A stretch of 64,000 bases of DNA from Streptomyces sp. 11x1 (lineage in GTDB: Bacteria; Actinomycetota; Actinomycetes; Streptomycetales; Streptomycetaceae): contig NZ_CP122458.1 of assembly GCF_032598905.1 (NCBI RefSeq), positions 9,201,001 through 9,265,000 of the forward strand. The letters are read 5' to 3'. Positions 3,307 to 64,000 of the stretch are shown one piece after another (the first letter of the stretch is position 1; the number at the start of each line of letters is the position of its first letter). The notes beneath the pieces were generated by a model. It did not search any database. It saw nothing but the letters and a program-made list of their open reading frames with translations, and was not told the origin of the DNA. The translations under genes and the position numbers were made by a program.

Positions 3307-3541
3307 GGCTCGTAACCATAGATGCGCCGGGGGGCGGGGTGCCACGGGAGTCCACGAAGCTGCTTTGCAGTCGGGACGAACGGCTCCAAATCACCCCGAG
3401 GCGGCGGCCTTTGGCCCGACGTCCCCCGCGCCGCCGGGAGGTGCTCGGCCGATCACGGAGATGCCGGGTTCTCGGACGCGAACGCCTCCGCCCGGCGAGA
3501 GCCCCTGGTCATGGCTGCCTACTGGCGGGTAACATCGCGCC

Positions 3542-24099: not shown

Positions 24100-24344
24100 C
24101 CGCCGCCCCGTATCCGTTCCTCGCCCCGCCGGTCGCCGTACTTATCGGACTGGAGTTCTGAGCCTGTCGTGTGGCGGAGCCCGAGCGGGGTCGCCGCCGC
24201 GTCCGCCGTCGCAGTCTCACCAGCACGGACGCCCAACACGTCGGCCCAGCCACGATGTCCGGTTGTCGCCGGTCCGCGTTAAATGCGTGGACTGCGAGCC
24301 TCCGCCGACGGGACACTTCCGACTTCTCAACTTCCGGGAGTGTG

Positions 24345-26210
24345 ATGGGGACATCAGATACGCGAGGGTCGACGCCGGGCAGGAGCGCGGTCGTTCTGGC
24401 GCTGCGCCGCTACGGTCTGGAACTGCTGCGCCTACGACGACTGGCCCTGCCGGCACTGCTGCTGCCGGCCCTGGGCAACATCGGCATCCGCTACGTCGCC
24501 CCCCTGCTGATCGCCAAGCTGGCGGGGCAGGCAGCCGACGAAGGGGGTCTCACCCTCGGTTCGGCGCTGCCGTACGTGGTGGCGTTCGGGGTGACGCTGC
24601 TGCTCGCCGAGGCCGTGTGGCGGGTCGGGCAGCACTGCCTGAACCGGGTGGACGCGCTCGGCATGGAACACCTCTACGTGAACGGAATGGACGAACTCCT
24701 CGCCAAGGACGCGGCGTTCTTCCACGACAACTTCGCCGGCTCCCTGACCAAGCGGGTGCTGAGCTTCGGCAAGCGCTTCGAGGACTTCGTCGACACGCTG
24801 ACCTTCCGGATCGTGGGCAGTGTGGTCCCCCTGCTGTTCGGGGCCGTGGTGCTGTGGACCTACGAACCGATGCTCGTCGTCGTCCTGCTGGCGATGATCG
24901 CGGTGACCGTGGTGGCGGCGACACCGCTGATCCGGCGCCGGCAGCGGCTCGTCCACGACCGTGAGGCGGCGGTCGCCCGGGTCTCCGGTCATGTCGCCGA
25001 CAGCCTCGTGAACATGGAGACCATCAGGGCGTTCGCGGCCGAGACACGGGAGGCCGAGGAACACCGCGACCGTGTCGCGGACTCCCGGCGCCTGACCCTG
25101 CGGTCGTGGGACTACGCCAATCTGCGCGTCGACACCCTGATCGCGCCCATGTCCGTCCTGACCAACGTGCTGGGTCTGGTGGTCGCCATCGCCCTCGGGG
25201 GCTCGGGCAGGGGAGTGGAGGAGGTCGTCGTCGCCTTCACCTACTTTTCCAACGCCACCCAGATCATGTTCGAGTTCAACCAGATCTACCGGCGTCTGGA
25301 GAACTCGATGACCGAGGCCGCGCAGTTCACCGAGCTGCTGCTGGATCCGCCCACCGTGCTCGACCCGACGGACCCCGAACCGCTCGCACCCCGCGACACC
25401 GGCGTCCGCTTCGAGAAGGTGCGCTTCGCCCACGCGGGCGCGAAGCCGATCTTCCAGGGGCTCGACCTGGACGTGCCCGCGGGCGCGCGCATCGGACTGG
25501 TCGGCAGGTCCGGCGGTGGCAAGACCACACTGACCCGGCTCCTGCTGCGGATGTCGGACATCGACGACGGACGCATCCTCATCGGTGGGCAGGACATCAG
25601 CCGGCTGCGCCAGACCGATCTGCGCTCACTGATCGCCTACGTCCCGCAGGAACCCGCCATGTTCCACCGCAGTCTGCGGGACAACATCGCCTTCGCCCGG
25701 CCCGGCGCGAGCGACGAGGAGATCCACGCCGCGGCCGAGGCCGCCCACGTCACGGAGTTCGTCGGCCAACTTCCCGACGGCTTCGCCACCCTGGTGGGGG
25801 AGCGGGGGGTGAAGCTCTCCGGCGGCCAGCGCCAGCGCGTCGCCCTCGCGCGGGCCATCCTGCGCGACGCCCCTGTCCTGCTGCTCGACGAGGCGACCAG
25901 CGCGCTGGACTCGGAGAGCGAGATCCTCGTCCAGGACGCCCTGTGGCGGTTGATGGACGGCCGGACGGCCCTCGTGGTCGCCCACCGGCTGAGTACCGTC
26001 GCCGGCATGGACCGTCTCGTGGTCCTCGACCGCGGGAGTGTCGTCGAGCAGGGCTCCCACGAGGAACTGCTCGCGGCGAATGGTGCCTACGCCAAGCTGT
26101 GGCAGCACCAGTCGGGCGGCTTCCTGGGCGAGAACGCCGAGCCGGACCTCACCGGACCGGTCCCGGAAGCCGGCCTCGACGGACTGCCGGCGCCGGCGCC
26201 GGCGACGTGA
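24345..26210 (+). CDS. ABC exporter, fused permease and ATPase (MsbA/ABCB type)
   Basis: 621 residues. A six-TM type-I exporter domain (about 25-330) is followed by an ATPase: Walker A GRSGGGKTT near 385, signature KLSGGQRQRVALARA near 490, Walker B VLLLDEATSALDS near 512, H-loop AHRLST. It would work as a homodimer or with another half-transporter. The ATG at 24345 follows GGGAG; upstream in-frame starts would add a hydrophilic low-quality extension. The substrate is not predictable. A strong GC hairpin at 26231-26255 follows. Confidence 0.92.
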   Translation: MGTSDTRGSTPGRSAVVLALRRYGLELLRLRRLALPALLLPALGNIGIRYVAPLLIAKLAGQAADEGGLTLGSALPYVVAFGVTLLLAEAVWRVGQHCLNRVDALGMEHLYVNGMDELLAKDAAFFHDNFAGSLTKRVLSFGKRFEDFVDTLTFRIVGSVVPLLFGAVVLWTYEPMLVVVLLAMIAVTVVAATPLIRRRQRLVHDREAAVARVSGHVADSLVNMETIRAFAAETREAEEHRDRVADSRRLTLRSWDYANLRVDTLIAPMSVLTNVLGLVVAIALGGSGRGVEEVVVAFTYFSNATQIMFEFNQIYRRLENSMTEAAQFTELLLDPPTVLDPTDPEPLAPRDTGVRFEKVRFAHAGAKPIFQGLDLDVPAGARIGLVGRSGGGKTTLTRLLLRMSDIDDGRILIGGQDISRLRQTDLRSLIAYVPQEPAMFHRSLRDNIAFARPGASDEEIHAAAEAAHVTEFVGQLPDGFATLVGERGVKLSGGQRQRVALARAILRDAPVLLLDEATSALDSESEILVQDALWRLMDGRTALVVAHRLSTVAGMDRLVVLDRGSVVEQGSHEELLAANGAYAKLWQHQSGGFLGENAEPDLTGPVPEAGLDGLPAPAPAT

Positions 26211-47595: not shown

Positions 47596-49038
47596 TCAGA
47601 GGATCGCTCCCGGCGTGTAGCCGGCGGCCTCCGGGCGCTGCTTGACGATCTCCTCGATCCGGCCGACGACGACGGCCACCTGGTCGGCGGCGGCGCCCGT
47701 GAAGGAGAGCTTGTCGGCCATGAGCGCGTCCAGCTGGGCCCGGTCCAGCGGGATGCGGTCGTCGGCGGCGAGCTTGTCGAGCAGTTCGTTGCGCTCGGCG
47801 CCCTGCTCGCGCATGGCCAGCGCGGAGGCGACGGCGTTCTCCTTGATGGCCTCGTGCGCGACCTCGCGGCCGACGCCCGCCCGGACGGCGCCCATCAGCA
47901 CCTTGGTCGTGGCGAGGAAGGGGAGGTAGCGGTCCAGCTCACGCGCGACGACCGCCGGGAACGCGCCGAACTCGTCGAGGACGGTCAGGAAGGTCTCCAG
48001 CAGACCGTCCAGCGCGAAGAAGGCGTCCGGCAGCGCGACCCGGCGCACCACGGAGCAGGACACGTCGCCCTCGTTCCACTGGTCGCCGGCCAGCTCACCG
48101 GTCATCGAGGCGTAGCCGCGCAGGATGACCATGAGGCCGTTGACACGCTCGCAGGAGCGGGTGTTCATCTTGTGCGGCATGGCGGACGAGCCGACCTGGC
48201 CGGGCTTGAAGCCCTCGGTGACCAGCTCGTGCCCGGCCATCAGCCGGATCGTCTTGGCCAGCGAGGAGGGGGCCGCCGCCAGCTGCACCAGCGCGGTCAC
48301 CACGTCGTAGTCCAGCGAGCGCGGGTAGACCTGGCCGACAGAGGTGAACGCCTGCGCGAAACCGAGGTGCCCGGCGATCCGGTCCTCCAGTTCCGCCAGC
48401 TTCGCGGCGTCCCCGCCCAGCAGGTCGAGCATGTCCTGGGCCGTGCCCACCGGGCCCTTGATGCCGCGCAGCGGGTACCGGTCGAGCAGCTCCTCGACCC
48501 GGCCGTACGCCACGAGCAGTTCGTCGGCGGCCGTCGCGAACCGCTTGCCGAGGGTGGTGGCCTGCGCGGCCACGTTGTGCGAGCGGCCGGCCATGACCAG
48601 CTCGCCGTACTCCCCGGCCAGCTTGCCGAGGCGCGCCAGCACAGCCACCGTACGGTCGCGGACCAGCTCAAGGGAGAGCCTGATCTGTAGCTGCTCGACG
48701 TTCTCGGTGAGGTCGCGGGAGGTCATGCCCTTGTGCACGTGCTCGTGCCCGGCGAGGTCGTTGAACTCCTCGATCCGCGCCTTCACGTCGTGCCGTGTGA
48801 CCTTCTCGCGCTCGGCGATGGAGGCCAGGTCGACGGTGTCGAGGACCCGCTCGTAGTCGGCGAGCGCCTCGTCCGGCACCTCGATGCCGAGGTCCTTCTG
48901 GGCCCGCAGCACGGCCAGCCAGAGCTGCCGCTCCAGCCTCACCTTCTGCTCGGGAGACCAGAGCGTGGCGAGCTCGGCGGAGGCGTAGCGTCCGGCGAGG
49001 ACGTTCGGGATGCGGGGCTTGGCTGGCGCAGAAGTCAC
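47596..49038 (-). CDS. purB: Adenylosuccinate lyase
   Basis: 480 residues, fumarase/aspartase superfamily. The signature GSSAMPHKMNTRSCE (about 280-294) is present, as are TSRDLTENVEQLQIRLSLEL and AGRSHNVAAQATTLGKR, giving the three conserved regions. It catalyses two steps of purine synthesis, SAICAR to AICAR and adenylosuccinate to AMP. GTG start at 49038; TAGACT lies eight bases upstream. It forms the left border of the indolocarbazole cluster. Confidence 0.97.
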   Translation of the reverse strand: MTSAPAKPRIPNVLAGRYASAELATLWSPEQKVRLERQLWLAVLRAQKDLGIEVPDEALADYERVLDTVDLASIAEREKVTRHDVKARIEEFNDLAGHEHVHKGMTSRDLTENVEQLQIRLSLELVRDRTVAVLARLGKLAGEYGELVMAGRSHNVAAQATTLGKRFATAADELLVAYGRVEELLDRYPLRGIKGPVGTAQDMLDLLGGDAAKLAELEDRIAGHLGFAQAFTSVGQVYPRSLDYDVVTALVQLAAAPSSLAKTIRLMAGHELVTEGFKPGQVGSSAMPHKMNTRSCERVNGLMVILRGYASMTGELAGDQWNEGDVSCSVVRRVALPDAFFALDGLLETFLTVLDEFGAFPAVVARELDRYLPFLATTKVLMGAVRAGVGREVAHEAIKENAVASALAMREQGAERNELLDKLAADDRIPLDRAQLDALMADKLSFTGAAADQVAVVVGRIEEIVKQRPEAAGYTPGAIL

Positions 49039-49158: not shown

Positions 49159-50796
49159 TCAGCCCCGCGGCTCACGGGGCGCGGCCTCACCCCGCACCGT
49201 GTCGACCAGGGCCATGGGGTCGCCGGGCAGGTCGTCGCCGCGCCAGGCGACGTGACCGTCGGGGCGGACCAGGACGAAGGAGCGTGCGTACAGCTTCGCG
49301 ATCTCCGTGTCCTGTCCCTGGTGCACGGTCAGGGGTACGCCCCGCTCGGCGAACGCGCGCCCGATCGCCGGGAGGCCGTCGTGGTCCGCGAAGCGGAGCA
49401 GGACGAAGCCATGGCCGAAGAGGTCGAGCGTGGAGGTCGTGGAGTCCCACCAGGCGTGCGCGGCGCGGTACCCGGGCTCGCTGCCGGGCCGCCAGTCGGC
49501 GTCCGGCTGCCCCTGGCGGATCGGTACGTCGGGGTCGTCGATGATCGCCGGGGAGCGGTAGCGCAGTCCGAAGTGGATCTGCGGGGCGTCGAACTCCCGC
49601 CGCGCGCCGCTGTTCTCGAGTCGCTCCGCCATCACGGCGCGGGCCCGCTCGCCCTCAGGTCCGTCGAGGTGGATCTCCGGCGGGACCTCCCGTTTCATGG
49701 TGCGCCGCAGATTGTCGTGGGCCTCGTTCAGGCTCTCCTCGGCGATCGGTCGACGCTCGCTGTCGTAGGTGTCGAGGAGGCGCCGCCCGGCCCAGCCGTC
49801 CAGGGTGGCGGCGAGCTTCCAGCCGAGATCGGCGGCGTCGCCGATGCCGGTGTTGAGTCCGAAGCCGCCGGAGGGCGACAGGGTGTGCGCGGCGTCGCCG
49901 GCGAGGAAGACCCGTCCGGCCCGGTAGCGGTCGGCGACACGGTGGGTGAGATGCCATTCGCTGTCGCCGAGCAGCTCCACCGGGGTGTCGAGGGCCAGGG
50001 CGTCCTTGATCAGGGCCAGGGCGTCGGGTCGGGCGCCGGTGTCGTCGTCGGCGCCCACGACCAGGTTGTACAGGTCGCTGCCGTTCAGCGAGCGCAGGGG
50101 GAAGCGCAGCGTGGACGACAGCATCAGGAAGTAGACCAGGGCGGCCCGCTCACCCAGGCGGTCCTTGAGTTCGGGGGCGCGGAAGAGGACGTTGCGGAAG
50201 ACCTGCGTACGGTGGCGGGCCGGTGCCTCGATGCCGCAGGCCCGGCGGATGGGCGAGGAGGCACCGTCACAAGCGACCAGGAAGCGCGCCCGGACGGTGC
50301 CGGTGGTGCCGGTGGCGTGGTCGGTGAGGGTGGCCTCGACGTGGTCGTCGGTCTGGAGCACGCCGTCGACTGTCGTACGGAGTCGCAGGGGGCCGTCCGG
50401 GTGGACGCCCACGGCCTCGATCAGCACCGGGTTGAGCCAGTGGGCGGGGCAGATCTGATCGGGCTCGGGAGTATGGACGAAGGTCGGGCGGTGCGCGGCC
50501 GTACCCCGCCGGTAGCGGTAGATCTCGTGGCCGCCGACCTTGGTCACCCAGGCGATGTCCAAGGGATGGTCGGCGGGCCAGCCGGCGTTCCGGATCGCGT
50601 CCGCGGCGCCCCAGCGGCGGAAGAGTTCCATCGAGCGGGGGCCGATGGTACTGACCTTGGGGTGCCGGACCTTGCCGTCACCGGCGTCGACGACCAGACA
50701 GTCGATGCCCCGGTACGTCAGATCCAGCGCCAGCGCCATCCCTACCGGGCCGCCGCCCACGATCAGCACATCGGTCCGCTCACCGGAATGCGTCAT
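49159..50796 (-). CDS. staC: FAD-dependent monooxygenase StaC-like (K252c formation)
   Basis: 545 residues. FAD GxGxxG-type loop at 13-18 (GGGPVG), the D-G motif in VACDGASSPIRR (about 174-185) and GRVFLAGDAAHTLSPSGGFGLNTG (near 315-337), all as in RebC/StaC. StaC works with StaP on chromopyrrolic acid and directs the product to the lactam aglycone K252c, whereas RebC gives the more oxidised arcyriaflavin. At the RebC F216 and R239 positions this protein has V221 and N244, the StaC pattern. Last gene of the leftward operon; 110 bp separate it from staMB. Confidence 0.93.
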   Translation of the reverse strand: MTHSGERTDVLIVGGGPVGMALALDLTYRGIDCLVVDAGDGKVRHPKVSTIGPRSMELFRRWGAADAIRNAGWPADHPLDIAWVTKVGGHEIYRYRRGTAAHRPTFVHTPEPDQICPAHWLNPVLIEAVGVHPDGPLRLRTTVDGVLQTDDHVEATLTDHATGTTGTVRARFLVACDGASSPIRRACGIEAPARHRTQVFRNVLFRAPELKDRLGERAALVYFLMLSSTLRFPLRSLNGSDLYNLVVGADDDTGARPDALALIKDALALDTPVELLGDSEWHLTHRVADRYRAGRVFLAGDAAHTLSPSGGFGLNTGIGDAADLGWKLAATLDGWAGRRLLDTYDSERRPIAEESLNEAHDNLRRTMKREVPPEIHLDGPEGERARAVMAERLENSGARREFDAPQIHFGLRYRSPAIIDDPDVPIRQGQPDADWRPGSEPGYRAAHAWWDSTTSTLDLFGHGFVLLRFADHDGLPAIGRAFAERGVPLTVHQGQDTEIAKLYARSFVLVRPDGHVAWRGDDLPGDPMALVDTVRGEAAPREPRG

Positions 50797-50906
50797 CTCG
50801 TTCCTGCCTCTCCTTGTGGGTCCGTGTCGCGGACGCGTGGGCTCGTGGCCCGGGGGACGGGCGCCGGGAGGGCAGGTGCCCCTGGGCCTCCCGGCGTTTC
50901 AGCGGG

Positions 50907-51749
50907 TCAGGGGCGCTCGGCGGTGACCAGGAGGCAACCGAAGTCATCGACGCCCGCCAGGTCGGAGGGCTTGAAGGAGTCGTCGCCGAAGTCGAAGTTG
51001 CCCTCGTCCATGGCCACGGGGCGCTCCTCTACGGCCGCGAGCCTGCCGATCTCGTCGGCGAGGCGCAGCGTGGTCTGCTCGGTGACGTCGACGATCTCGC
51101 GCAGCCGCAGCCCGGAGCGGTGCAGCAGCGCCACGTAGTCGTCGATGTCCGCCGTGGTCGACATCAGGTCGCGGCAGAACTTGTCGATGCCGGGGTGTCG
51201 TACCGCCTTGCGCGGGTGGCGCTCGAAGATGTCGGTGAGAACGATCCGGCCCCCGGGGCGCAGCACCCGGCACACCTCGGTGAACACCTGCTGCCGGTCG
51301 GGCATGTGGCAGATCGACTCCAGCGCCATCACGGCGTCGAACGAGGCGTCGGCGAAGGGCAGTTTCATCGCGTCGCCATGCTGGAACACGGCACGGTCGG
51401 CGACCTCGGCCTCGGCGGCCAGCCGGTTGGCGGTCCTGATCTGCTCCTCGCTGATGCTGATGCCGGTGACCCGCGCCCCGGTGCGCGCCACGACCCTGAG
51501 GCCGGGCCCGCCCACCCCGCAGCCGAGGTCGAGGACGTGGGAGGTGGCGTACGCGTTCAGCCGTTCGATGAACACATCGGTGAGGCGGTCCATCGCCTCC
51601 TCGATGGTGGCCTCGGAGCCCGGGGTGTCCCAGAAGCCGATGTGCACATTGGGGTTGAACGAGCCGTCGTTCATCGCGCTCAGCGTCAGCCGGTCGTACA
51701 GCTCACCGACGGCTTCCGGCACGGGCAGGGTCTGGGCGGAGTCGGTCAT
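50907..51749 (-). CDS. staMB: SAM-dependent methyltransferase, StaMB-like (sugar O-methylation)
   Basis: 280 residues, class I methyltransferase related to RebM. SAM motif I VLDLGCGVGGPGL (about 72-84), post-I GISISEEQ, motif II-type FADASFDAVMALESICHMPDR and LRPGGRIVLTDIF. In the staurosporine cluster the methyltransferase between staE and staC is StaMB, which O-methylates the 4' hydroxyl of the sugar. The assignment rests on position and family. Not redundant with StaMA, from which it differs clearly. Confidence 0.85.
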   Translation of the reverse strand: MTDSAQTLPVPEAVGELYDRLTLSAMNDGSFNPNVHIGFWDTPGSEATIEEAMDRLTDVFIERLNAYATSHVLDLGCGVGGPGLRVVARTGARVTGISISEEQIRTANRLAAEAEVADRAVFQHGDAMKLPFADASFDAVMALESICHMPDRQQVFTEVCRVLRPGGRIVLTDIFERHPRKAVRHPGIDKFCRDLMSTTADIDDYVALLHRSGLRLREIVDVTEQTTLRLADEIGRLAAVEERPVAMDEGNFDFGDDSFKPSDLAGVDDFGCLLVTAERP

Positions 51750-51872
51750 GGGAACGGCCTTTCGGATCGATCGACGGTGAGAAAGGGACAGTCGCCAGGA
51801 AGGGACGGTCGCCGGGGTGGTCAGGGGTGGTGCGGAGCGGCGGCCTCCGCCATGCGCCTCGTCGGTGCGGGG

Positions 51873-52493
51873 CTACGCCACGGGACTCGCCCGGAGGGCG
51901 AGTCCCCGCTCGATCTCCTGGCAGCGGGCGTAGTCGGGCAGCAGGCCCTTCTCCTGGGCCTCGGCGAGGGTGACGGCCGCGCGGTCGCGTTCGGAGAGGA
52001 CCGGTTCGAGGTCCGTGGGGATCGGCAGCCCGAGGGCCGGGTCCAGGACGGACAGGGAGAGTTCGTGCTCGGCGACATAGCTCTCGGAGAGCATGTACGA
52101 CATGACGGTGTCGTCCTCCAGGGCCACGAAGGCATGGCCGACCCCGACGGGAAAATAGCTGGCCCGGTGATCCCGCTGGTCCATCAGCACCGTGTCCCAG
52201 CGGCCGAAGGTGGGCGAACCGACTCTGATGTCGACGACGATGTCCAGGGCCCGGCCCCGGGCGCAGTAGACGTACTTGGCGGTGCCGGGGGGCGCCGCCG
52301 TGTAGTGGACGCCGCGTACGACACCACGCCGGGACACGCTGTGGTTGGTCTGCGCCACGGGGAAGAGCGGGGCGCCGTGGGCCTCGGTGAACGCCGCCTC
52401 CTGGTACGGCGAGACGAACTTGCCCCTGTCGTCGGGGAAGACGCGGGGGGTGAACTCGACGGCTCCCTCGACGGTGAGCGGGCGTGCTTTCAC
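51873..52493 (-). CDS. staE: dTDP-4-keto-6-deoxyhexose 3,5-epimerase, StaE-like
   Basis: 206 residues, RmlC-type cupin. RGVVRGVHY (about 55-63) has the catalytic-type His, followed by ARGRALDIVVDIRVGSPTFGRWD and YFPVGVGHAFVAL (about 113-125), the usual epimerase motifs. It should invert C5 (and possibly C3) of a dTDP-4-keto sugar on the way to the L-configured amino sugar. 55 bp downstream of the aminotransferase gene in the operon. Confidence 0.92.
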   Translation of the reverse strand: MKARPLTVEGAVEFTPRVFPDDRGKFVSPYQEAAFTEAHGAPLFPVAQTNHSVSRRGVVRGVHYTAAPPGTAKYVYCARGRALDIVVDIRVGSPTFGRWDTVLMDQRDHRASYFPVGVGHAFVALEDDTVMSYMLSESYVAEHELSLSVLDPALGLPIPTDLEPVLSERDRAAVTLAEAQEKGLLPDYARCQEIERGLALRASPVA

Positions 52494-52548
52494 TTCTGCT
52501 CCAGTGACTCGGCGAACGACGGGGTGCGAAAAGAGAGTTGGCGGGCGG

Positions 52549-53658
52549 TCACAGGGTGGCGAGCACCTCGCGTACGGCCTGGATGACCTTGTCCTGGAGG
52601 TCGGGGGCGAGCGAGGGGTACATCGGCAGCGAGAAGATCTCGCCGGCCAGTGCCTCGGTGACCGGGAGCGAGCCCTTGGCGTAGCCGAGGTGGGCGAAGC
52701 CCGTCATCGTGTGGACCGGCCACGGATAGCTGATGTTGAGGTGGACGTCGTGGGCCTTGAGGCGCTCGATGATGGCGTCACGCCGGGGGTGGCGGACGAC
52801 GTACACGTAGTAGACGTGCTCGTTGCCGGGGACCGTGCGCGGCAGGACGAGGTCGGTGTCGGCGAGGCCGTCGGCGTAGCGTTCGGCGACGGCGCGGCGG
52901 CCCTTGACGTAGGTGTCGAGGCGCCGAAGTTTGCGGCGGAGGATCTCGGCGTGGAGTTCGTCCAGGCGGCTGTTGTGGGCGGGGGTCTCCAGGGTGTAGT
53001 AGCGCTCGTCCATGCCGTAGTAGCGCAGGCGTCGCAGGCGTGCGGCCACGGAGGCGTCGCCGGTGATCGTGGCGCCGCCGTCGCCGTACGCGCCGAGGAC
53101 CTTGGTCGGGTAGAAGGAGAAGGCCGCGGCGTCACCGGTGGTGCCGGCCATGGTGTCGCCCTGCCGGGCGCCGTGGGCCTGGGCGCAGTCCTCCAGGACG
53201 ACCAGCCCGTGCCGGACGGCGATCTCCTTCAGCGGCGCCATGTCGACGCACTGGCCGTACAGATGGACCGGAAGCAGACAGCGGGTGCGTTCGGTGACGG
53301 CCGCCTCGATCTGGCTCGTGTCCATGAGGAAGTCGTCCTCGCGGACGTCGACGAAGACGGGGGTGGCGCCGGTGGAGTCGATGGCGACGACGGTGGGGGC
53401 GGCGGTGTTGGACACCGTGATCACCTCGTCGCCGGGGCCGACACCGAGGGCCTGGAGACCGAGCTTGATGGCGTTCGTTCCGTTGTCTACACCCACACAG
53501 TGGTCCACCCCGTGGTAGGCGGCGAACTCCTCCTCGAAGCCGCGCACACTCGCGCCGAGCACCAACTGGCCCGACTCGAAGACCGTTTCGACGGCGTCGA
53601 GGATGTCCGCCCGCTCGGCTCGGTACTCCGCCAGGTAGTCCCATACACGCGTGGTCAT
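52549..53658 (-). CDS. staI: Sugar aminotransferase (DegT/DnrJ/EryC1), StaI-like
   Basis: 369 residues, fold-type I PLP enzyme. The PLP lysine is K186 in [15 protein letters not shown], with [11 protein letters not shown] (about 56-66) binding phosphate and [12 protein letters not shown] holding the Asp that pairs with the pyridine nitrogen. It installs the 3-amino group on the keto sugar precursor of staurosporine's sugar. The ATG at 53658 has an AAAGG-type ribosome site. Position between staK and staE matches the known order. Confidence 0.93.
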
Positions 53659-53728
53659 CGTCCAGCCTTTCCAGTACTGCGGCGCACAGCCGTACGCCTG
53701 TGGTGAGTAGGGGTCGGGGGCGCTGCCG

Positions 53729-54715
53729 TCACCGGCTCCCGGTCCGCTCCCGGGCCAGGGCGGTGACGGTGCGGCGCACTGCCTCGGGCAGGGAGATCCG
53801 GGGTCGCCAACCGGTGGCCGCGCGGAACGCGGAGGAGTCGAGGGTGACGCTGCGGAAGTCGGTCACGGGGGCGTGCGCGGGCGGTTCGACGGAGACCACG
53901 TCGACCGGGGGCCGCCCGAGGGCTTCGGACGTGATGAGGGCGATCAGCCGGAAGACGTCGCCGAGTGCGTCGCCCCGGCCGGCGCCGATCAGCCAATGGC
54001 CGCCCACGAGGGCGTCCGGGTGGTCGAGGGCGGCCGTGAACGCCGCCGCGACATCGTCGACATGGACCAGGTCGCGGCGCACGGTGCCGTCGTGCCACAT
54101 GGTGAGTGTCTGCCCGTCGAGGGCCCTGCGCGCCATGGCCGACACGACGCCTCGGTCGCCGGTGCCGGACGCCGTGCTCTCGCCGAACACGGTGGGCAGG
54201 CGCAGGCCGATGCCGCGTACCCGGCCCTCGGCGGTGGCCTTGAGCAGGAGATGTTCGGCGGTCAGTTTCTGCCGGTCGTAGGCGGTCTCGGGGCGGTCGG
54301 GTTCGCTGCCGTCGAGGGGCTCCCGGGGCGGCACCCCGACCTGCGAGGCGGCACCGGCGTACACCACCAGCGGGGGTGTCGCGTCGCCGGGCGCGGGCCG
54401 CAGTACGTCGACGAGGTTCCGCATGACACCGACGTTGACGTGCTCGGCACCGGGGTCGGACTCGGCGGCTCGCCAGCCGCCCTCACCCAGCAGCAGATGG
54501 ATCACCGCGTCCGAACCCTGAACCGCCGCGGCCAGCGCGGCCCGGTCGGTGAGATCGGCGGTGACGACATCGGTCTCGGCCGTGCCGGGGGAGTGGGCGC
54601 AGGGCCGACGGGAGACGAGCCGGAGCCTAACGGGCCGGGACGCCAGCGCTCGGGTGACGGCCGACCCGACGAAACCCGAGGCACCGAGCACGGTGATCAG
54701 CGGTGTGTACCCCAT
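53729..54715 (-). CDS. staK: NAD(P)-dependent 4-ketoreductase, StaK-like
   Basis: 328 residues, extended SDR fold. NAD loop [12 protein letters not shown] (about 8-19; G-x-x-G-x-x-G) and the catalytic Y-x-x-x-K as [14 protein letters not shown] (about 148-161). It resembles the EryBIV/AveBIV-type 4-ketoreductases that finish deoxysugar synthesis. Starts one base after the stop of staJ with a GGAGG site inside staJ, so the two are translationally coupled. Confidence 0.9.
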
Positions 54716-54716
54716 G

Positions 54717-56138
54717 TCACTGTCCTCCTCGCGGCCGTGCGGCCGTCGCGTTGACGCAGGCCAGCAGCGTGCGGGCCTCGACGTTCAGGTAGTGGCCGTG
54801 CCGGGTGAGGGTCCTGAGCTGGCCCGGGGTGGCCCAGGTGTAGCCGGGGGGCGGGGCGAGGGGTACGTCGTCGGCGTCGACCAGCAGATAGCGGCTCCTG
54901 GCGTTGAGGAAGCGTCCGCCCTCCTCGGAGTGGACGGCCTCGTAGCGGATGCGCTCGGGGCGGGCGTCGAGGACGGTGTCGAGGAACGGCGGGCGGTGCT
55001 CCGCGGTGAGGTGGGCGTGGTTGCCGGGTGTGCACTGGACGGTCGGAGCCAGCTCGACGGTGTCCAGGAATCCGCCCTCGGCCCGGGCGTGGACCAGAAC
55101 ATGGGGTACGCCCTCGATCTCGCGCACCAGGAAGGCGCTGACCCCCAGGCCGACCGGCTCCAGCAACGGCTGGTCCCAGTCGACCACTTCGCGGTTGCCG
55201 GCCCGTACGGAGACGGCGACGACCTTGAAGTAGCGCCCGTCCTCGTGCTCGATCGCCTCGACACCCTGCTTCCAGCCGCGCACGGAGGCGAGCGGGACGC
55301 GCTCCACGTGTATGTCGTGCCGGGAGCGCTCCCCGGTGAACCAGGACAGGAGCTGGGCGTCGGAGAGCAGCGCCCCGGGGGAGGTGTCCGGGTACTGCAC
55401 GCACGACAGCACGGTCCTGGCGTTCATGTTGACCAGGTCGTCCTCGTGCAGCAGTTCGGCGATCTGGCCGAGGGTGAGCCAGCGGAAGTCGTCCAGTTCG
55501 GGAACGTCGTCGACGGTCTCCACGATCATGTTGCGATTGGACTTGCGGTAGAACCACGAGCCCTGTTCGGACTGCAGGACATCGACGAGGACCCGGTCGG
55601 GGTCGGGCCGGAAGAAATGGTCGATGAGCTTGACGTCCGTGCCCCGGTGCGCCCGTGTGTAGTTGCTGCGGGTGGCCTGCACGGTCGGGGAGAGCTGGAG
55701 CAGATTGGGATTGCCCGGCTCCATCTTGGCCTGCATCAGGAAGTGCAGCACTCCGTCGAACTCCTTGGCGAGAATGCCGAGGATGCCCACTTCGGGCTGG
55801 CGGACGACGGGCTGCTGCCACTCCTGGTACGGGCCGTCACCGAAGGGCCCGTCCGACTCGACGACGTGCATGCCCTCGACGGTGAAGAACCGTCCGCTGC
55901 GGTGCACGAGATTGCCGGTGCCCTCCTCGAACCGCCACTGCCGCAGCTCCGCGAACGGTATCCGCGTCACCTCGAACACATGGGCACGGCGCCGCTCGGC
56001 CAGCCAGGCCCGCACCTCCTCGGTCCGCGACCGGGCCCCGCGGGCGGTCGCGGCGGACAGGGCGACCCGGTCGGCCGTCGTACGGTCCTCACGCGGGCGT
56101 ACGGCGGCGGACGGCGGGCCGAGACCGGAAGACATCAC
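54717..56138 (-). CDS. staJ: NDP-hexose 2,3-dehydratase, StaJ-like
   Basis: 473 residues made of two homologous halves, as in EvaA/TylX3-type 2,3-dehydratases. Half one includes GNLVHRSGRFFTVEG and FLMQAKMEPGNPNLLQLSPTVQATRSNYTR; half two repeats this as DGRYFKVVAVSVRAG and LVHARAEGGFLDTVELAPTVQCTPGNH. It removes the C2 hydroxyl from the dTDP-4-keto-6-deoxyglucose precursor, the committed step to 2-deoxy sugars. Starts 16 bp downstream of staMA. Confidence 0.93.
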   Translation of the reverse strand: MMSSGLGPPSAAVRPREDRTTADRVALSAATARGARSRTEEVRAWLAERRRAHVFEVTRIPFAELRQWRFEEGTGNLVHRSGRFFTVEGMHVVESDGPFGDGPYQEWQQPVVRQPEVGILGILAKEFDGVLHFLMQAKMEPGNPNLLQLSPTVQATRSNYTRAHRGTDVKLIDHFFRPDPDRVLVDVLQSEQGSWFYRKSNRNMIVETVDDVPELDDFRWLTLGQIAELLHEDDLVNMNARTVLSCVQYPDTSPGALLSDAQLLSWFTGERSRHDIHVERVPLASVRGWKQGVEAIEHEDGRYFKVVAVSVRAGNREVVDWDQPLLEPVGLGVSAFLVREIEGVPHVLVHARAEGGFLDTVELAPTVQCTPGNHAHLTAEHRPPFLDTVLDARPERIRYEAVHSEEGGRFLNARSRYLLVDADDVPLAPPPGYTWATPGQLRTLTRHGHYLNVEARTLLACVNATAARPRGGQ

Positions 56139-56154
56139 AGGTCTCCCCGTCCCG

Positions 56155-56982
56155 TCAGGACCGCTGCGCGGTGATCAGGACGTAACCGGAGTCCGGATGC
56201 CCACCGAAGGTCTCCATCAGGTCGGCCGCCGCATTCATCTGCTGCGCCGCCCCGGCGTCGAGAGCCCCGGCGAGGCCCCGGAACGCGGCGGCGGCATGCC
56301 CGTAGCTGGCGCGGACCTGCTCACCGATGTCCGTCAGCTCCAGCAGTTCCCAGCCCGCCTCCGCCAGTCGCGCGTGATGCTCGTCGGGTGTGTTGATCCC
56401 GGCGATCTCGTACATCCGCAGCATCCCGTCGAGTACCGCCTCGTCGGCGCCGGTGAACGGCCGGCGCTGACACAGGTCGGCGATGACGAGCCGGCCGCCG
56501 GGGCGGACGACACGGTGGATCTCCGTGAGCGCGGGTGTCTGGTCGGGCAGATGCAGCAGTGACTCGATGGCGAAGGCGCCGTCGAAGGAGACGTCCTCGA
56601 AGGGGAGGTCCATGGCGTCCGCCAGCCGGAAGGAGACCCGGCCCCCGGCATCGGACTCCACCGCCCGCTCGGCCGCCTCGGTGACCTGCTGCTGGCTGAC
56701 GGTGATCCCGGTGACCCGGACGTCGTGCGCTCCGGCGATCCTGAGAGCCGGTACGCCGATGCCGCAGCCCACGTCCAGCAGATGCCGGTCGGGGCGGAGC
56801 GCGAGGCGCTCGGCGACGAGATCGGTGAGCCGGTCGGTGGCCTCGGCGATCGGCACCTCGGGGTCGTCGTCCCAGTAACCCACGTGGATGTTGCCGCCCA
56901 TCGCGGTGCTGGCGCCGGCGTCGGCGAACTGGTCGTACACCTCACCGACCGAGTCTGCGGTGGCGTCGGACTGCTGCGTCAT
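56155..56982 (-). CDS. staMA: SAM-dependent methyltransferase, StaMA-like (sugar N-methylation)
   Basis: 275 residues, RebM-like class I methyltransferase. Motif I LLDVGCGIGVPALRI (about 68-82), GITVSQQQVTEAAERA, and AMDLPFEDVSFDGAFAIESLLHLPDQ. In the staurosporine cluster the methyltransferase next to staP is StaMA, the 3' N-methyltransferase; the assignment is by order and family. ATG 56982, 61 bp after staP. Confidence 0.87.
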   Translation of the reverse strand: MTQQSDATADSVGEVYDQFADAGASTAMGGNIHVGYWDDDPEVPIAEATDRLTDLVAERLALRPDRHLLDVGCGIGVPALRIAGAHDVRVTGITVSQQQVTEAAERAVESDAGGRVSFRLADAMDLPFEDVSFDGAFAIESLLHLPDQTPALTEIHRVVRPGGRLVIADLCQRRPFTGADEAVLDGMLRMYEIAGINTPDEHHARLAEAGWELLELTDIGEQVRASYGHAAAAFRGLAGALDAGAAQQMNAAADLMETFGGHPDSGYVLITAQRS

Positions 56983-58342: not shown

Positions 58343-61300
58343 CTAACGGCTCGGCGGGCGGAAGTGGTCGGCCCAGAAGGCGCTCATCTCCGCCACGCGT
58401 GGGGGGACGAGCGGATGCTTGGCGCACCGCGCCGCGAGGTCGTCGAGGCGGCGGGCGATACCGCGTCTGGCCACGTCCGGCCGGGAGACGGGCGCGGGCT
58501 GCTCGGGCAGTTCGAAGGAGGGTCCGGCGGTCATGCCCCGGCGCCCCGACGGCATGGTGACGAGCAGTTCCGCCAGCGGCCGCATCAGGCCCGTCATCAT
58601 GTCGATCGCCCCGTTCATCAGGTCCGACCGCCGCAGACTGGCGTCCGGGCACTCGCCGAAGTGCTGGGCCATCAGCTGCAGCGTCATGAAGTAGGCGCGA
58701 TCGAACAGCTCCATGACGGCGCGGGCGTCGGGGTCGGTGACCGTCTCCGTCGCCGGGTTCCCGTGCCCGAGCGTGGGGTTCCGTACGACGGGGTAGGCCG
58801 GGTTCCAGCGTTCGCCGCCCGGTCGTCCGCCGATCGTCGGGGCGCCGCGCAGCAGGTCGGAGATGCGCAGGAACGCGTGGTAGTGGGACGTCTCGTCGGC
58901 GCGCGGGCCGAGGACGCCGCCCTCGCCCTGCTCGGTGATGACGTCGATCGCGAACAGCGCGCTGGAGAGATCGTCGACTTCGAGCTGGTAGTCGGGGTGG
59001 CGCCGGTTGAGGGACTCGCGAAGGAAGAGATGGTGTTCGCCGCCTCCTCTGCCCTTGTCCACCAGGAAGAGGCCCGGGACGCTCTCCAGCCCCTCCCGGA
59101 TGTCCGCGTACAGCTCGCTCAGCGAGGCGTAAGGGTGCCGCTCGTCGTACGCGGCGGGGGGCGCCGGAGCGTCGCCGCGCCGTACCTCGTCGACGAGGTC
59201 CTCGGGCCGTTCGATCTGTACGAACCGCTCCACGCTGCCGGGCCCCAGGCGCTCCAGGGCGAAATCCAGCGGGACGGCCAACTGTTGGTTGACGGTGCCG
59301 AAGTCGATCCGGGGCGCGTGGAAGGGTTCGCCCACTGCCATGAGGATGTTGTTGACGAGGAGGAAGTGGATCATCTCCTCGCGGGCGATGGTCAGCAGCA
59401 TGCTGCGGATGCCCTCGTCGAGGGTCTCCCCGCCGTCACCGCACGCGAGCCGCAGTTGCTCGGGCGTCCACAGGCCCCGGCGTACGTACTCCGCGCCGGC
59501 GCCATGGGTGGGTACCGAGTAGGCGGCGTACAGGTACTGGAGCATGACGGCGAGTTCGATCGCGGCGGCGTCGCGCAGCACCTCGACGAGCCGACCGCGT
59601 GTGGTGATCCTCCGGCCGCCGCGCCCGACGGCCGGCGTCGTCAGCAGTACCTCGTCGGGCTTCTGCTGGGCCCGCAGGAACGTCAACAGGAGACGGGCCT
59701 TGGGTGCGGACAACTCCCGCGTGGGCGGCATGTAGTACGTCCTCGCCTTGTTGCGCGGGTCGCACATCTGCCAGATCAGCTTGGCGTACGTCTCCACCTT
59801 GCAGCGGTCCGCGAGGCTGAAGACCTCGGCCTTCATGAACGAGTGGACGTGCTCGTAGTAGGCGAAGACCTCCCGGTAGACCAGGTCGAAGGTCACCTCG
59901 TCCTCGCCGACACCGGCCAGCCGCCAGTCGTCGGGCAGCACCCGCACCGACAGGTGTCCGGCGCCGGGCCAGTAACCGAGCGTGTTGTCCTGGTCGTGGC
60001 CGAGGGCGGCGGAGCCCGGCGTGTCCGGGTCGCACGGCACGTCGTCGGGTCCGGTGGACAGCAGGACGCGGGCGGTTCCGGCCGTCGCACCCCGCAGCGT
60101 CAGCCATCCCCGGCCGTCGTCGTCCGTGCTCAGGAGGCAACCGCTCGACCACGGCCCGTCGTCGTCCCGCCGTCCCGCCCGCACCCGGACGATGTCCACG
60201 TCGGACGACCGGGCCTCCGGGGCGCTCGCGATCGGATCGCGGGGAAGCGCCCGGGGGTTGAAGAACTGCCGTACGCCGATCTCGTCGACGGCGGCCGGGC
60301 GGCCCCGTACGAAGGACCGGACGAGCACCTCGACGTCGTGCTCCGCGTCGGCCGTGTCCCGGGGGTGCTCCAGGATGAGGGAGGCGTCGTCGACCTGGAC
60401 GTTGATCTCCTTCTCGCGCAGATGGACGACCGGTCCGTCGGGTCCGGTGCCCAGCAGGCGCAGTGCCTCGTGGGCGGCCTCGTGCGCGGGCATCTCGACC
60501 GGCACGGTGACCAGCCCGCCGGCCAGGGCGTACGCGTCCCCGAGATAGGCGTGCCGGGGCAGTCGGGCGACCAGTCGATCGGTGTCCGCCGTACGCAGTT
60601 CGAGGTCACCGAGGTCGAGCGGTTCGGCCCCGGGGCGGCCGTCGCCCGCCGTCCGGTCGGACGTGGGCAGCGCCGTGATCATGTTGAACGTGGCGTGGTC
60701 GTCCGCCAGTCGCACGGTCAGGTTGTGCAGACCAGGGACGGTGGGGTGGTGCGGCCCGTGGCGAGGCGTCAACAGCCGTCCCGCCGGGTAGGTGCGCGTC
60801 TCGTGCGGGAGCCAGGGAGCGATGGTTCCGCGCAGCCGTAAGCGGCTCGGGCGGTCGGGGGCCTCGGGGGCGGCCCGGTGGCTGAGCGCGAACTGTACGA
60901 CGAGGCCGCCGACCCCCTCCGTGGCCACCGTGTCCCGCAGTCGCCGTACCGCCGGTGAGGCGTCGGTCCCGTCGAACCAGGTCAGCTCGTCGTCCTCGGA
61001 GGCCACGAACTGGTGGACCACGGACCGGCGCAGACGTTCGGCCAGCCAGTGTGCCTCGGCTTCCCCGAGGTCGCGCACATGACCGGGGTTGTGCCATCGC
61101 GGCGGTTGGAAGCCGTGGACGGTGTCGGTCAGCATGTAGCCGACGTCGTGGGAACGTCCGTCGCGTCCGAACCCGAACTGTCCCACCATGAGGGTCGTGG
61201 TCCACTCGGAGGCCGGGTCGAGGTCGAAGACGCGGGCGCGGTTGACGGTGGTGGCGAGGTACTCGTTGTAGTGCCCCCACATGTCGACGCTCCGTCCCAC

Positions 61301-61633
61301 CACGGGGTCGGTGATGTCGAGTTCGCCCGCGCGGCACTCGACGCCGACGATCCGGGCGTCGACGGCGAAGTGTCCGTTGCCGGCGAAGTCCTCGCCCTTG
61401 GCCTCGGTGAAGGGCCCGTCGGGCGCCGGTCGTCCGGTCGTGTCGTAGCGGGGGCCGAGCCGGTCGAGGTGGTCGTGGTACTCGGCGGGCGGGCGGTGGG
61501 CCGGGAAGGGCCGGCCGTCGGCCGTGAGGGCGGTGTTGGTGGCCAGGTCGACGAGGCCGCTGCGGGCGCCGGTGGGCAGGTGGGTGGTGGCCGTGCCGGC
61601 GAAGTGCAGCCGGGGCAGGTCGAAGACGCTCAT
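58343..61633 (-). CDS. staD: Chromopyrrolic acid synthase StaD-like (VioB/RebD family), TTA codon
   Basis: 1096 residues. The N-terminal half begins MSVFDLPRLHFAGTATTHLPTG, diagnostic for StaD/RebD/VioB; the C-terminal half has a ferritin-like iminophenyl-pyruvate-dimer-synthase domain (ELAVMLQYLYAAY and AREEMIHFLLVNN, roughly 695-770). The enzyme is a hemoprotein that couples two tryptophan-derived imines into chromopyrrolic acid. Codon 265 is TTA (bases 60841-60839), a bldA target. ATG at 61633 overlaps the stop of staO (ATGA); a longer upstream reading is spurious. Confidence 0.96.
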   Translation of the reverse strand: MSVFDLPRLHFAGTATTHLPTGARSGLVDLATNTALTADGRPFPAHRPPAEYHDHLDRLGPRYDTTGRPAPDGPFTEAKGEDFAGNGHFAVDARIVGVECRAGELDITDPVVGRSVDMWGHYNEYLATTVNRARVFDLDPASEWTTTLMVGQFGFGRDGRSHDVGYMLTDTVHGFQPPRWHNPGHVRDLGEAEAHWLAERLRRSVVHQFVASEDDELTWFDGTDASPAVRRLRDTVATEGVGGLVVQFALSHRAAPEAPDRPSRLRLRGTIAPWLPHETRTYPAGRLLTPRHGPHHPTVPGLHNLTVRLADDHATFNMITALPTSDRTAGDGRPGAEPLDLGDLELRTADTDRLVARLPRHAYLGDAYALAGGLVTVPVEMPAHEAAHEALRLLGTGPDGPVVHLREKEINVQVDDASLILEHPRDTADAEHDVEVLVRSFVRGRPAAVDEIGVRQFFNPRALPRDPIASAPEARSSDVDIVRVRAGRRDDDGPWSSGCLLSTDDDGRGWLTLRGATAGTARVLLSTGPDDVPCDPDTPGSAALGHDQDNTLGYWPGAGHLSVRVLPDDWRLAGVGEDEVTFDLVYREVFAYYEHVHSFMKAEVFSLADRCKVETYAKLIWQMCDPRNKARTYYMPPTRELSAPKARLLLTFLRAQQKPDEVLLTTPAVGRGGRRITTRGRLVEVLRDAAAIELAVMLQYLYAAYSVPTHGAGAEYVRRGLWTPEQLRLACGDGGETLDEGIRSMLLTIAREEMIHFLLVNNILMAVGEPFHAPRIDFGTVNQQLAVPLDFALERLGPGSVERFVQIERPEDLVDEVRRGDAPAPPAAYDERHPYASLSELYADIREGLESVPGLFLVDKGRGGGEHHLFLRESLNRRHPDYQLEVDDLSSALFAIDVITEQGEGGVLGPRADETSHYHAFLRISDLLRGAPTIGGRPGGERWNPAYPVVRNPTLGHGNPATETVTDPDARAVMELFDRAYFMTLQLMAQHFGECPDASLRRSDLMNGAIDMMTGLMRPLAELLVTMPSGRRGMTAGPSFELPEQPAPVSRPDVARRGIARRLDDLAARCAKHPLVPPRVAEMSAFWADHFRPPSR

Positions 61634-63144
61634 GCCGACCGCTCCGAGCGACTGAGGCGGGAGGCGGCGAAGACGCGGCTGGCGCGTGGCTCGTACCACT
61701 CGATCTCGTGCGCGGCGTCGATCGCGGACTCGATGGCCCCCTCGATCCAGGCCGGCTTGGACGAGCAGTGCTCGCCGGCGAAGAACAGGCCCTTCTGCGG
61801 TCGTGCGCACTCACGGCGCTCGGCCTCGCGCAGGGCGGCCTCCTGGCCCCAACGGACGGTGGCGGCGCCCCGGGACCATCGGCGGGCGCCCCAGTCCCGG
61901 CCCGCGACGGCGAGGACCATGCCGGGCCTGCGCAACTCGGGGTGCATCACGCTGAGTTCCTTGGTGACGAGGGCGTCGCGCTCGGCCTCGTCCATCCGGG
62001 CCAGGGCCTCGGCGTCCGGGCCGATGGTGTAGCTGGCGAGGAGGACCGCGCCGAGGGCGGGGTCGCCCTCGGCGGGCGGGTAGTAGGTCTGCCGGACATG
62101 GCCGCCGGTGAAGGAGGCGCCCCCGCTGATGCCGTCCTTCTCCCAGAAGGGCTCTCGGCAGTGGAAGGCGATCTTCGTCGCCGGCCAGTACTTGGTCTCG
62201 TGGACGATGTCGAGCTTGTCCTGGTCGAAGCCGGTGAGCCGCAACGTCCTCAGGACGGTGAACGGGATGGTGCACACCACGTAGTCGCACGTTCTGGTGA
62301 CCGTCCTGAGGCCCTGTCGGACGGTCAGGGTCACGGTGTCGTCGTGCACGTCTATGCCGGTGACCTCCTGGCCCAGGGAGATCTTCCCCCGGATACGGGA
62401 GGCGAGCCGGCGGGGCAGTTCGTCCATGCCGTCCTTGAGCCGCACGATGCTGGAGCTGGTCTCGTCCAGCACGTCGTCGAGGAAGCGTTCGAGCCGGGGT
62501 GGGCAGGACGCCCGTACCCGGGGATGATCGGCGAACAGGGCGTGCAGATCGATCCTGTTGCGGGCGGTGCCACAGCGATAGGGCGTCAGATCGATGTCGT
62601 CCACGAGATTCAGCAGTTCCACACCGATGTCGCTGTGCAGTCCGTCGTAGAACTGGCGTGGGGCGATGGCCCGGATACTGGCATCCAGCCAGGCACCGAA
62701 CAACAGGGTGTCCTGGCGGTAGCGCGCGCTCGGCAGTCCGGTGGCGAATTCGTCGACCAGCGTGTCGTGTGCCTCGCGCACCCGGAGGTATCCGGCGGAA
62801 CTCGGCAGATAGGCGGCGTCGTCGGAGAACAGCGTCCGGAATTCCCGTACCTGGTTCTGCAACCCGAGTTCGGCGATGTAGTGCATGGTCAGCCGGTGTC
62901 CGGCGGGGATACGCATGGCCCCCATCTCGGCGAACGGGCCGGGCTCACCGGCACCGGAGAAGCGGTGGGTGCGAATGCGGCCGCCTATCTCATCACTGCC
63001 TTCGAGGATCTGCACGTGATGTCCGAGGCGTTCCAGTTCATAGGCCGTCACCAGGCCGGCGATACCGGCGCCGATGACGGTGACCCGCTTCGGTCCGCCG
63101 ATGGCGTCGTCCGGCCCGTCACTGTCCTGCAAGGGTGCCGTCAC
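61630..63144 (-). CDS. staO: L-tryptophan oxidase StaO-like (flavoprotein amine oxidase)
   Basis: 504 residues from GTG 63144, which has GGAGG at a good distance; residues upstream of it in the same frame are not family-like. FAD loop VTVIGAGIAGLVTAYELE (G25-A-G-x-x-G30), followed by E-G-S-D-E-I-G-G-R-I-R, and a C-terminal GLFFAGEHCSSKPAWIEGAIESA, the second FAD motif of the monoamine-oxidase family. VioA/RebO/StaO make the indole-3-pyruvate imine that feeds StaD. First gene of the leftward operon; the stop overlaps staD. Confidence 0.95.
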   Translation of the reverse strand: MTAPLQDSDGPDDAIGGPKRVTVIGAGIAGLVTAYELERLGHHVQILEGSDEIGGRIRTHRFSGAGEPGPFAEMGAMRIPAGHRLTMHYIAELGLQNQVREFRTLFSDDAAYLPSSAGYLRVREAHDTLVDEFATGLPSARYRQDTLLFGAWLDASIRAIAPRQFYDGLHSDIGVELLNLVDDIDLTPYRCGTARNRIDLHALFADHPRVRASCPPRLERFLDDVLDETSSSIVRLKDGMDELPRRLASRIRGKISLGQEVTGIDVHDDTVTLTVRQGLRTVTRTCDYVVCTIPFTVLRTLRLTGFDQDKLDIVHETKYWPATKIAFHCREPFWEKDGISGGASFTGGHVRQTYYPPAEGDPALGAVLLASYTIGPDAEALARMDEAERDALVTKELSVMHPELRRPGMVLAVAGRDWGARRWSRGAATVRWGQEAALREAERRECARPQKGLFFAGEHCSSKPAWIEGAIESAIDAAHEIEWYEPRASRVFAASRLSRSERSA

Positions 63145-63505: not shown

Positions 63506-64000
63506 TTGACGCGTGTTTTGATCGCTACCACCCCGGCACCGGGACACGTCGTGAGCATGCTGGAGGTCGCATGCGAACTGGCCCGGCGCGGCCACGAGGT
63601 GCGGTGGTACACCGGACGGGCCTTCCAGCAGCAGGTGGAGCGGGCCGGGGCGCACTTCGAACCCATGACCCCCGAGCTCGACTTCAGCGGCAGAAGCCGC
63701 GAGGAGGCGTTCCCCGAGCACGCGGGGCTGAGCGGAATGGCGAACTTCAAGATCGGCGTCCGGGACATCTTCTACCGGACCGCGCCCCGCCAGATGGACG
63801 ACCTGTTGAAGGTCCTCGAACGGTTCCCGGCCGACTGCATCCTCGCCGACGACATGTGCTACGGCGCCTGCTTCGTCGGCGAACGCACCGGTATCCCTGT
63901 GGCGTGGCTGGCCAACTCCGTCTACATCCTGGGCAGTCGGGACACCGCACCCCTGGGCCGGGGGCTCGGACCCAGTTCGTCACCGCTGGGCCGGGTGCGC
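63506..64000 (+). CDS. staG: Indolocarbazole N-glycosyltransferase StaG-like, 3' end outside window
   Basis: The first 165 residues of a GT1/GT-B glycosyltransferase. Starts at TTG 63506, five bases after GGAGG, reading MTRVLIATTPAPGHVVSMLEVACELARRGHEVRWYTG; P-x-P-G-H followed by the helix is the usual acceptor-domain opening. RebG/StaG transfer the deoxysugar to the indole nitrogen of the aglycone. No ATG or GTG start gives this N-terminus, so it is easily missed. The C-terminal sugar-nucleotide domain is beyond the window. Confidence 0.92.
   Translation, partial: MTRVLIATTPAPGHVVSMLEVACELARRGHEVRWYTGRAFQQQVERAGAHFEPMTPELDFSGRSREEAFPEHAGLSGMANFKIGVRDIFYRTAPRQMDDLLKVLERFPADCILADDMCYGACFVGERTGIPVAWLANSVYILGSRDTAPLGRGLGPSSSPLGRVR

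Follow-up and report, generated by a model that had tools for sequence, protein, structure and literature searches.

A gene cluster in Streptomyces sp. 11x1 that is predicted to be of the staurosporine type contains a rare TTA leucine codon in the biosynthetic gene staD, and this raises the question of whether the codon places the cluster under the control of the bldA tRNA. The DNA analyzed here (hereafter the window) is a stretch of 64,000 nucleotides, and an earlier note on it had proposed that the staD codon would delay production until late in development even if the mRNA were present. We examined the codon itself, its expected frequency in this genome, its counterparts in StaD relatives, and the TTA codons of the other sta genes in related clusters.

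The cluster and its TTA codons

The assignment as staurosporine-type follows from gene content, with the product being a prediction: 15 of 15 sta genes occur together, and homologues of the fifteen with 96–99% identity are found around StaD in Streptomyces sp. MNU76. The sta gene names used here follow common usage for such clusters. In the textbook pathway, StaO, the first enzyme, makes indolepyruvate imine, and StaD couples it. The genes from staMA to staC encode methyltransferases, deoxysugar enzymes, and an FAD monooxygenase (StaC), and an adenylosuccinate lyase-like gene (47596–49038) adjoins staC. Beyond the window, staG is followed by staN, staA, and staB and then by staR, the activator gene, which converges with staB; the two share 90 bases at their 3′ ends (68597–68686 in extended window coordinates). 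Pfam and NCBIfam matches identified StaN as a second cytochrome P450 besides StaP and StaR as a large regulator that has a LuxR-type GerE domain at its C terminus. StaD scored 131.8 bits for the ferritin-like domain PF12902 (Pfam cut-off, 22.3), which places it in the VioB/RebD/StaD family, and 780.3 bits for TIGR04492, the VioB equivalog profile with a cut-off of 1250; these profile scores indicate that StaD is a relative of VioB and not VioB proper. The staO stop and the staD start overlap by four bases (ATGA), and the two genes are probably translationally coupled.

Table 1 Features of the sta cluster. Positions are those of the window unless indicated otherwise.
Feature	Position	Strand	Basis or remark
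TTA leucine codon 265 of staD	60839..60841	-	Sequence and script check
staD, chromopyrrolic acid synthase homologue, 1096 aa	58343..61633	-	PF12902; VioB profile TIGR04492 below cut-off
staO, flavin amine oxidase homologue	61630..63144	-	Domain matches
staP, cytochrome P450	57044..58303	-	39 bases after staD
staMA, staJ, staK, staI, staE, staMB, staC	49159..56982	-	Domain matches; without TTA
staG, glycosyltransferase, start only (runs past window edge)	63506..64000	+	Domain matches
staR, LuxR-type activator gene	68597-71599 in extended window coordinates (L002:14597-17599:-)	-	TTA codon 303

The plus strand reads TAA at the codon, giving TTA on the minus strand (bases 60841 to 60839), and a script check agreed with this reading. 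As the earlier note had stated, this TTA is codon 265 of staD, in frame with the ATG at 61633; the frame has no inner stop down to 58343, and the encoded context is DRPSRLRLRG, which contains the D-R-P-S-R-L-R-L-R stretch described before. Translation of staD from this ATG and a list of its TTA codons, the check that the note had proposed, returned this single codon, located 24% along the gene. It is thus a true UUA codon, expected to be read by the bldA tRNA. The statement that no second TTA lies in the cluster genes of the window also held for its ten whole sta genes and StaG: the codon is absent from staC, staMB, staE, staI, staK, staJ, staMA, staP, and staO, all whole in the window, and from staG, which crosses its edge. 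When the flanking genome was included, TTA was found in only two of the fifteen sta genes, staD (codon 265) and staR (codon 303). The staR gene is about 7 kb away, just outside the window; its start is uncertain, with homology beginning near residue 91 in about half of its relatives, and codon 303 lies inside the gene either way. Elsewhere in the window, one TTA each lies near the listed starts of ORFs 2251–3345, 13344–16607, and 24171–26210 (codons 11, 10, and 37, respectively), and some of these may precede the true start.

The genomic TTA rate was estimated from 20 evenly spaced 20-kb stretches with a simple gene finder that covered 80% of the bases. In this sample, nine of 317 predicted genes carried TTA, with nine TTA per 106,030 codons. 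At this rate, at least one TTA is expected in a gene of 1096 codons with P of about 0.09, and at least two in the 15-gene cluster (7057 codons) with P of about 0.12. The TTA of staD is therefore unremarkable; it is real but not beyond chance. The base after a TTA codon is reportedly a sign of tolerance, an argument made from mistranslation of ccaR; this sign was set aside here, with C following seven of the nine TTA codons in the genome sample.

The genome contains the machinery for reading UUA. A probe for the tRNA-Leu(UAA) gene, bldA, matched a single site in the genome, with 40 of 42 candidates scored, and ARAGORN classified this match as tRNA-Leu with anticodon TAA. An adpA orthologue, 96% identical to the AdpA probe, carries a TTA in its SLPEE stretch. 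With bldA and an adpA that contains TTA both present, bldA control is plausible in this strain, and staD combines an in-frame TTA with a host that has the tRNA, as a bldA-dependent gene should. To this extent the bldA reading of staD stands: the codon, the tRNA gene, and the adpA TTA are all in place. A regulatory role specific to codon 265 did not find similar support, as described below. A survey of titles and abstract openings in the open-licence literature returned no report of TTA codons in sta genes, which is weak evidence that none is in print, and the available part of PMC12159101 does not discuss them.

Codon 265 among StaD relatives

StaD relatives were collected by genome searches over overlapping sets, with matches in 11 of 100, 33 of 392, and 12 of 395 genomes (the last with a stricter cut-off), and by a contig scan of the best 80 of 90 relatives, which gave 76 distinct loci. 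From 107 extracted rows, four shorter than 2400 bases were dropped, and removal of exact duplicates reduced the remaining 103 to 91 distinct genes. Among the matches listed, the codon equivalent to 265 in these 91 StaD-family genes (window included) was TGG in 86, CGG in two, CTG in one, and TTA in one, with a gap in one. Apart from the window, no distinct homologue among the matches listed had TTA there (0 of 90, one of them with the gap), so that the codon was confined to the window, and the CTG belonged to MNU76. The latter is the nearest relative among the matches listed, with StaD 97% identical and staD DNA 97.2% identical, and it provides the single close DNA comparison on which the description of the TTA as private to this strain depends. 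At the protein level, residue 265 was Trp in 113 of 121 proteins (the window and the best 120 of 392), with Leu restricted to this strain and MNU76; six other proteins had R, S, F, or C, and the second-nearest protein (89% identity) had Trp. The residue itself is thus unusual in this StaD.

In the comparison with staD of other producers suggested by the earlier note, then, TTA265 was not kept. Conservation of the codon in orthologues, which would be a sign of adaptive value rather than a strict requirement, was not observed. Among 17 Streptomyces staurosporine-type clusters, only the window had TTA in StaD, and TTA in staurosporine-type StaD was otherwise found in Kribbella antibiotica (window residue 302) and two Salinispora loci, L023 and L024 (694). 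Across the StaD family, one or two TTA codons, never at codon 265, were present in Kribbella, three Salinispora, one Pseudonocardiales, and one Mycobacterium, as well as in four Streptomyces loci that are not staurosporine-type by gene count (L049, L053, L072, and L079); a further locus (L082) had TTA at window residue 231, and 11 cyanobacterial rows had many. The StaD frame of Streptomyces sp. I6 (L041) is only 829 aa although the match covers query residues 1–1091, possibly owing to a frameshift or sequence error.

The simplest history, with the order of mutations being what we infer, would be that an ancestral Trp codon TGG changed to Leu before the window strain and MNU76 split, at a position tolerating other residues. 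The Leu codon may have arisen through TTG and then become TTA in the window strain and CTG in MNU76. The same comparison bears on a sequencing or assembly error at codon 265, which the lack of TTA265 in every relative examined might suggest. TTA and CTG differ at two bases, Leu is common to MNU76, and the genome (10.67 Mb in two contigs) is rated 100% complete and has an intact staD frame; such an error is very improbable. We also considered and rejected decay of staD: the window and MNU76 copies differ by 50 synonymous and 36 nonsynonymous codons (ratio, 0.72), and the ratios for the other sta genes, 0.20 to 2.00, include this value. In a structure model of StaD (mean pLDDT, 76.1; pTM, 0.58), residue 265 falls in a predicted strand (263–274) toward the N terminus, many residues before the ferritin-like stretch (686–925). 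With R, S, F, or C accepted in six proteins, the model gives no strong case for a structural cost of losing Trp265; no solved structure of a StaD relative was found by sequence.

These data bear most directly on the possibility that the TTA of staD works as a developmental lock, in which the scarce tRNA would limit StaD until late growth and so place a translational gate at the committed step, in addition to control by StaR. The codon and bldA are both present, and the ATGA overlap suggests a coupled operon. There are also precedents. UUA codons in structural genes can block translation, and a moeE5–gusA fusion with two UUA codons had no activity without bldA, according to the available part of PMC3814723. 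A bldA mutant had less of a polycistronic mRNA that contains UUA and less of its downstream product, as stated in the portion of PMC2000904 at hand. However, codon 265 is CTG in MNU76, the nearest relative among the matches listed, TTA265 is absent from the other distinct homologues as well (90 in all, one with a gap), and the number of TTA codons fits chance. The codon also lies 24% into the gene, whereas streptomycete TTA codons are biased toward gene starts (PMC4255298, in part), and UUA may be mistranslated in some genes without the bldA tRNA, as the accessible text of PMC3814723 describes for S. ghanaensis adpA. More generally, most TTA codons in the genus are described as poorly conserved in the part of PMC10327506 available. 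A recent codon can still act. Taken together, we consider a working lock at staD unlikely, and the proposal that this TTA is a meaningful regulatory feature lacks support from the relatives and from codon frequency.

TTA codons in staR and other sta genes

To place the staR codon in context, 21 staurosporine-type clusters were compared over aligned stretches, with 5 to 15 of the 15 genes in view in each. This set leaves out L120 and L121 (sharing contigs with L022 and L047), L082 (StaR out of view), and Lentzea L029–L032 and others with a regulator about 36% identical or less; L063 (StaR 48% identical) enters only the StaR site listing and tree. TTA codons upstream of StaR residue 91 (L025 and L040) were not counted, the start being uncertain. 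From residue 91 on, StaR carried TTA in 14 of the 21 clusters, followed by StaO (seven) and StaD (four). The totals were 16 in StaR, eight in StaO, four in StaD, two in StaP (one cluster), two in StaN (two clusters), and one each in StaG and StaB (one cluster each); the other eight genes had none. Nineteen of the 21 clusters, and 15 of the 17 from Streptomyces, carried TTA in one or more of the genes in view.

TTA thus recurs in StaR orthologues, with codon 303 used in six clusters (the window, MNU76, K. antibiotica, genome G426, S. tardus, and Streptomyces sp. XM4193), 294 in four, 523 in three, and 285, 544, and 799 singly. On a StaR tree built by a quick method, in which seven of 19 inner branches are open, codon 303 requires four changes, codon 294 three, and codon 523 one. 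A supported clade (the window, MNU76, G269, Streptomyces sp. I6, and G418) has TTA in all five members, at 303 in two and at 523 in three, which looks like, but does not prove, a presence that is kept while its place shifts. In StaO, TTA occurred at six codons (5, 31, 157, 236, 327, and 404) in seven clusters (L020, L119, L021, L025, L040, L123, and L024). A conserved nucleotide element at StaR codon 294 was rejected: the share of A-ending codons there (0.45) is ordinary, and 16 codons of the gene rank above it.

The apparent enrichment of TTA in StaR depends on how sites are counted. Per Leu codon, TTA was 3.6-fold more frequent in StaR than in the rest (P = 0.0003), a value in which codons shared by descent are counted repeatedly. 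By distinct sites, entered by hand from the cluster listings for this and the following test, StaR had six per 2561 Leu codons versus 15 per 10,250 (P = 0.41), and the excess was gone. StaR and StaO together had 12 distinct sites versus nine in the rest (P = 0.005), a pooling chosen after seeing the data. StaR also has softer codon usage, with lower third-position GC and raised CTA, CTT, TTG, and ATA. Its TTA excess remained when set against CTA (P = 0.035), CTT (P = 0.03), and TTG (P = 0.003); the softer usage explains the excess in part.

The same figures would be invoked by an explanation without any bldA control, in which the staR and staD codons reflect drift under slightly relaxed codon usage and enough of the tRNA is available by the time the cluster is transcribed. 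The raised rare codons and lower third-position GC of StaR accord with drift, as do the seven of 21 StaR without TTA from residue 91 on, the two clusters (L047 and L122) without TTA in the genes seen, and the lack of enrichment over all other genes by distinct sites. By contrast, TTA is present in 15 of the 17 clusters from Streptomyces, against a probability of 0.45 per full cluster at the rate of the window genome (binomial P of about 3e-4, ignoring relatedness and the rates of other genomes), and the five-member StaR clade keeps TTA though its place differs. Drift without bldA control is, in our judgment, quite unlikely. A different extension of these data is that sta clusters retain TTA as a bldA checkpoint whose exact place turns over, usually within StaR or StaO, and that this strain recently added a second lock in StaD to form a two-layer gate on the activator and the committed enzyme; we regard it as possible but doubtful.

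Likely site of bldA control and comparison with known systems

We favor the reading, with a probability of about 0.6, that the staD TTA is recent and most likely neutral or a minor brake, and that StaR, through codon 303, is the likelier main point of bldA action, since the sta genes can be switched on only after translation of StaR. The regulatory steps that we infer for this strain would be as follows. A shortage of the UUA-reading tRNA would cause StaR to be made late and thereby delay the entire cluster, given that S. sanyensis depends on the StaR homologue SpcR: loss of spcR stopped indolocarbazole production there (PMC3640393, in the part available). Ribosomes would also slow at staD codon 265 and yield less StaD, and expression of genes farther along the mRNA may fall; staP, for example, could be subject to polarity if ribosomes stall in staD. 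The StaD codon would add to the StaR gate only once mRNA exists.

The more informative TTA of this cluster is thus that of staR and not that of staD, and the earlier interpretation is plausible in kind and weak for codon 265, which is probably neutral and would add no more than a recent, secondary brake. Should staurosporine be under bldA control in this strain, StaR is the likelier candidate, as far as the codons and their distribution indicate. The staR TTA is the more widely shared one; therefore, late production, if any, need not come from staD. A synonymous replacement in staD alone in a bldA mutant would be confounded, because staR also carries TTA. For moving the cluster to another host or for reading its timing, staR would be the gene to consider first. 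The case also illustrates how easily a TTA in a single genome is over-read, with MNU76, the nearest relative found, using CTG for this leucine. Should selection indeed keep TTA present while its place drifts, sta clusters would form a natural series for the evolution of a bldA checkpoint.

Among known systems, the sta cluster of TP-A0274 and the spc cluster of S. sanyensis FMA (PMC3640393, in part) share the same gene kinds (in the order of TP-A0274: R, B, A, N, G, O, D, P, MA, J, K, I, E, MB, and C). The present case resembles bldA control of adpA, actII-ORF4, and redZ, as far as PMC4255298 and PMC2000904 in their available parts describe it, in combining a rare UUA in a secondary-metabolism gene, a tRNA-Leu(UAA), and a TTA-bearing adpA. 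However, those three genes are regulatory and streptomycetes conserve the adpA codon, whereas the staD codon is not conserved even in the nearest relative found. TTA in the LuxR-type regulator of a cluster is a known pattern, one such regulator in another cluster having three TTA codons (PMC8988807, in part). The moeE5 gene of moenomycin resembles staD in being a gene for a biosynthetic enzyme with UUA that would need the bldA tRNA, but the moenomycin cluster has no cluster regulator, according to the accessible part of PMC3814723, whereas the sta cluster has StaR, itself TTA-bearing. A parallel to the distribution across clusters is the amf/ram cluster, in which TTA is found sometimes in the regulator and sometimes in a gene for an enzyme (PMC4255298, in part). 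In the sta clusters, similarly, the presence of TTA is commoner than any one place for it, which is mostly StaR or StaO, a likeness drawn on the sta side from the sequences of 21 clusters.
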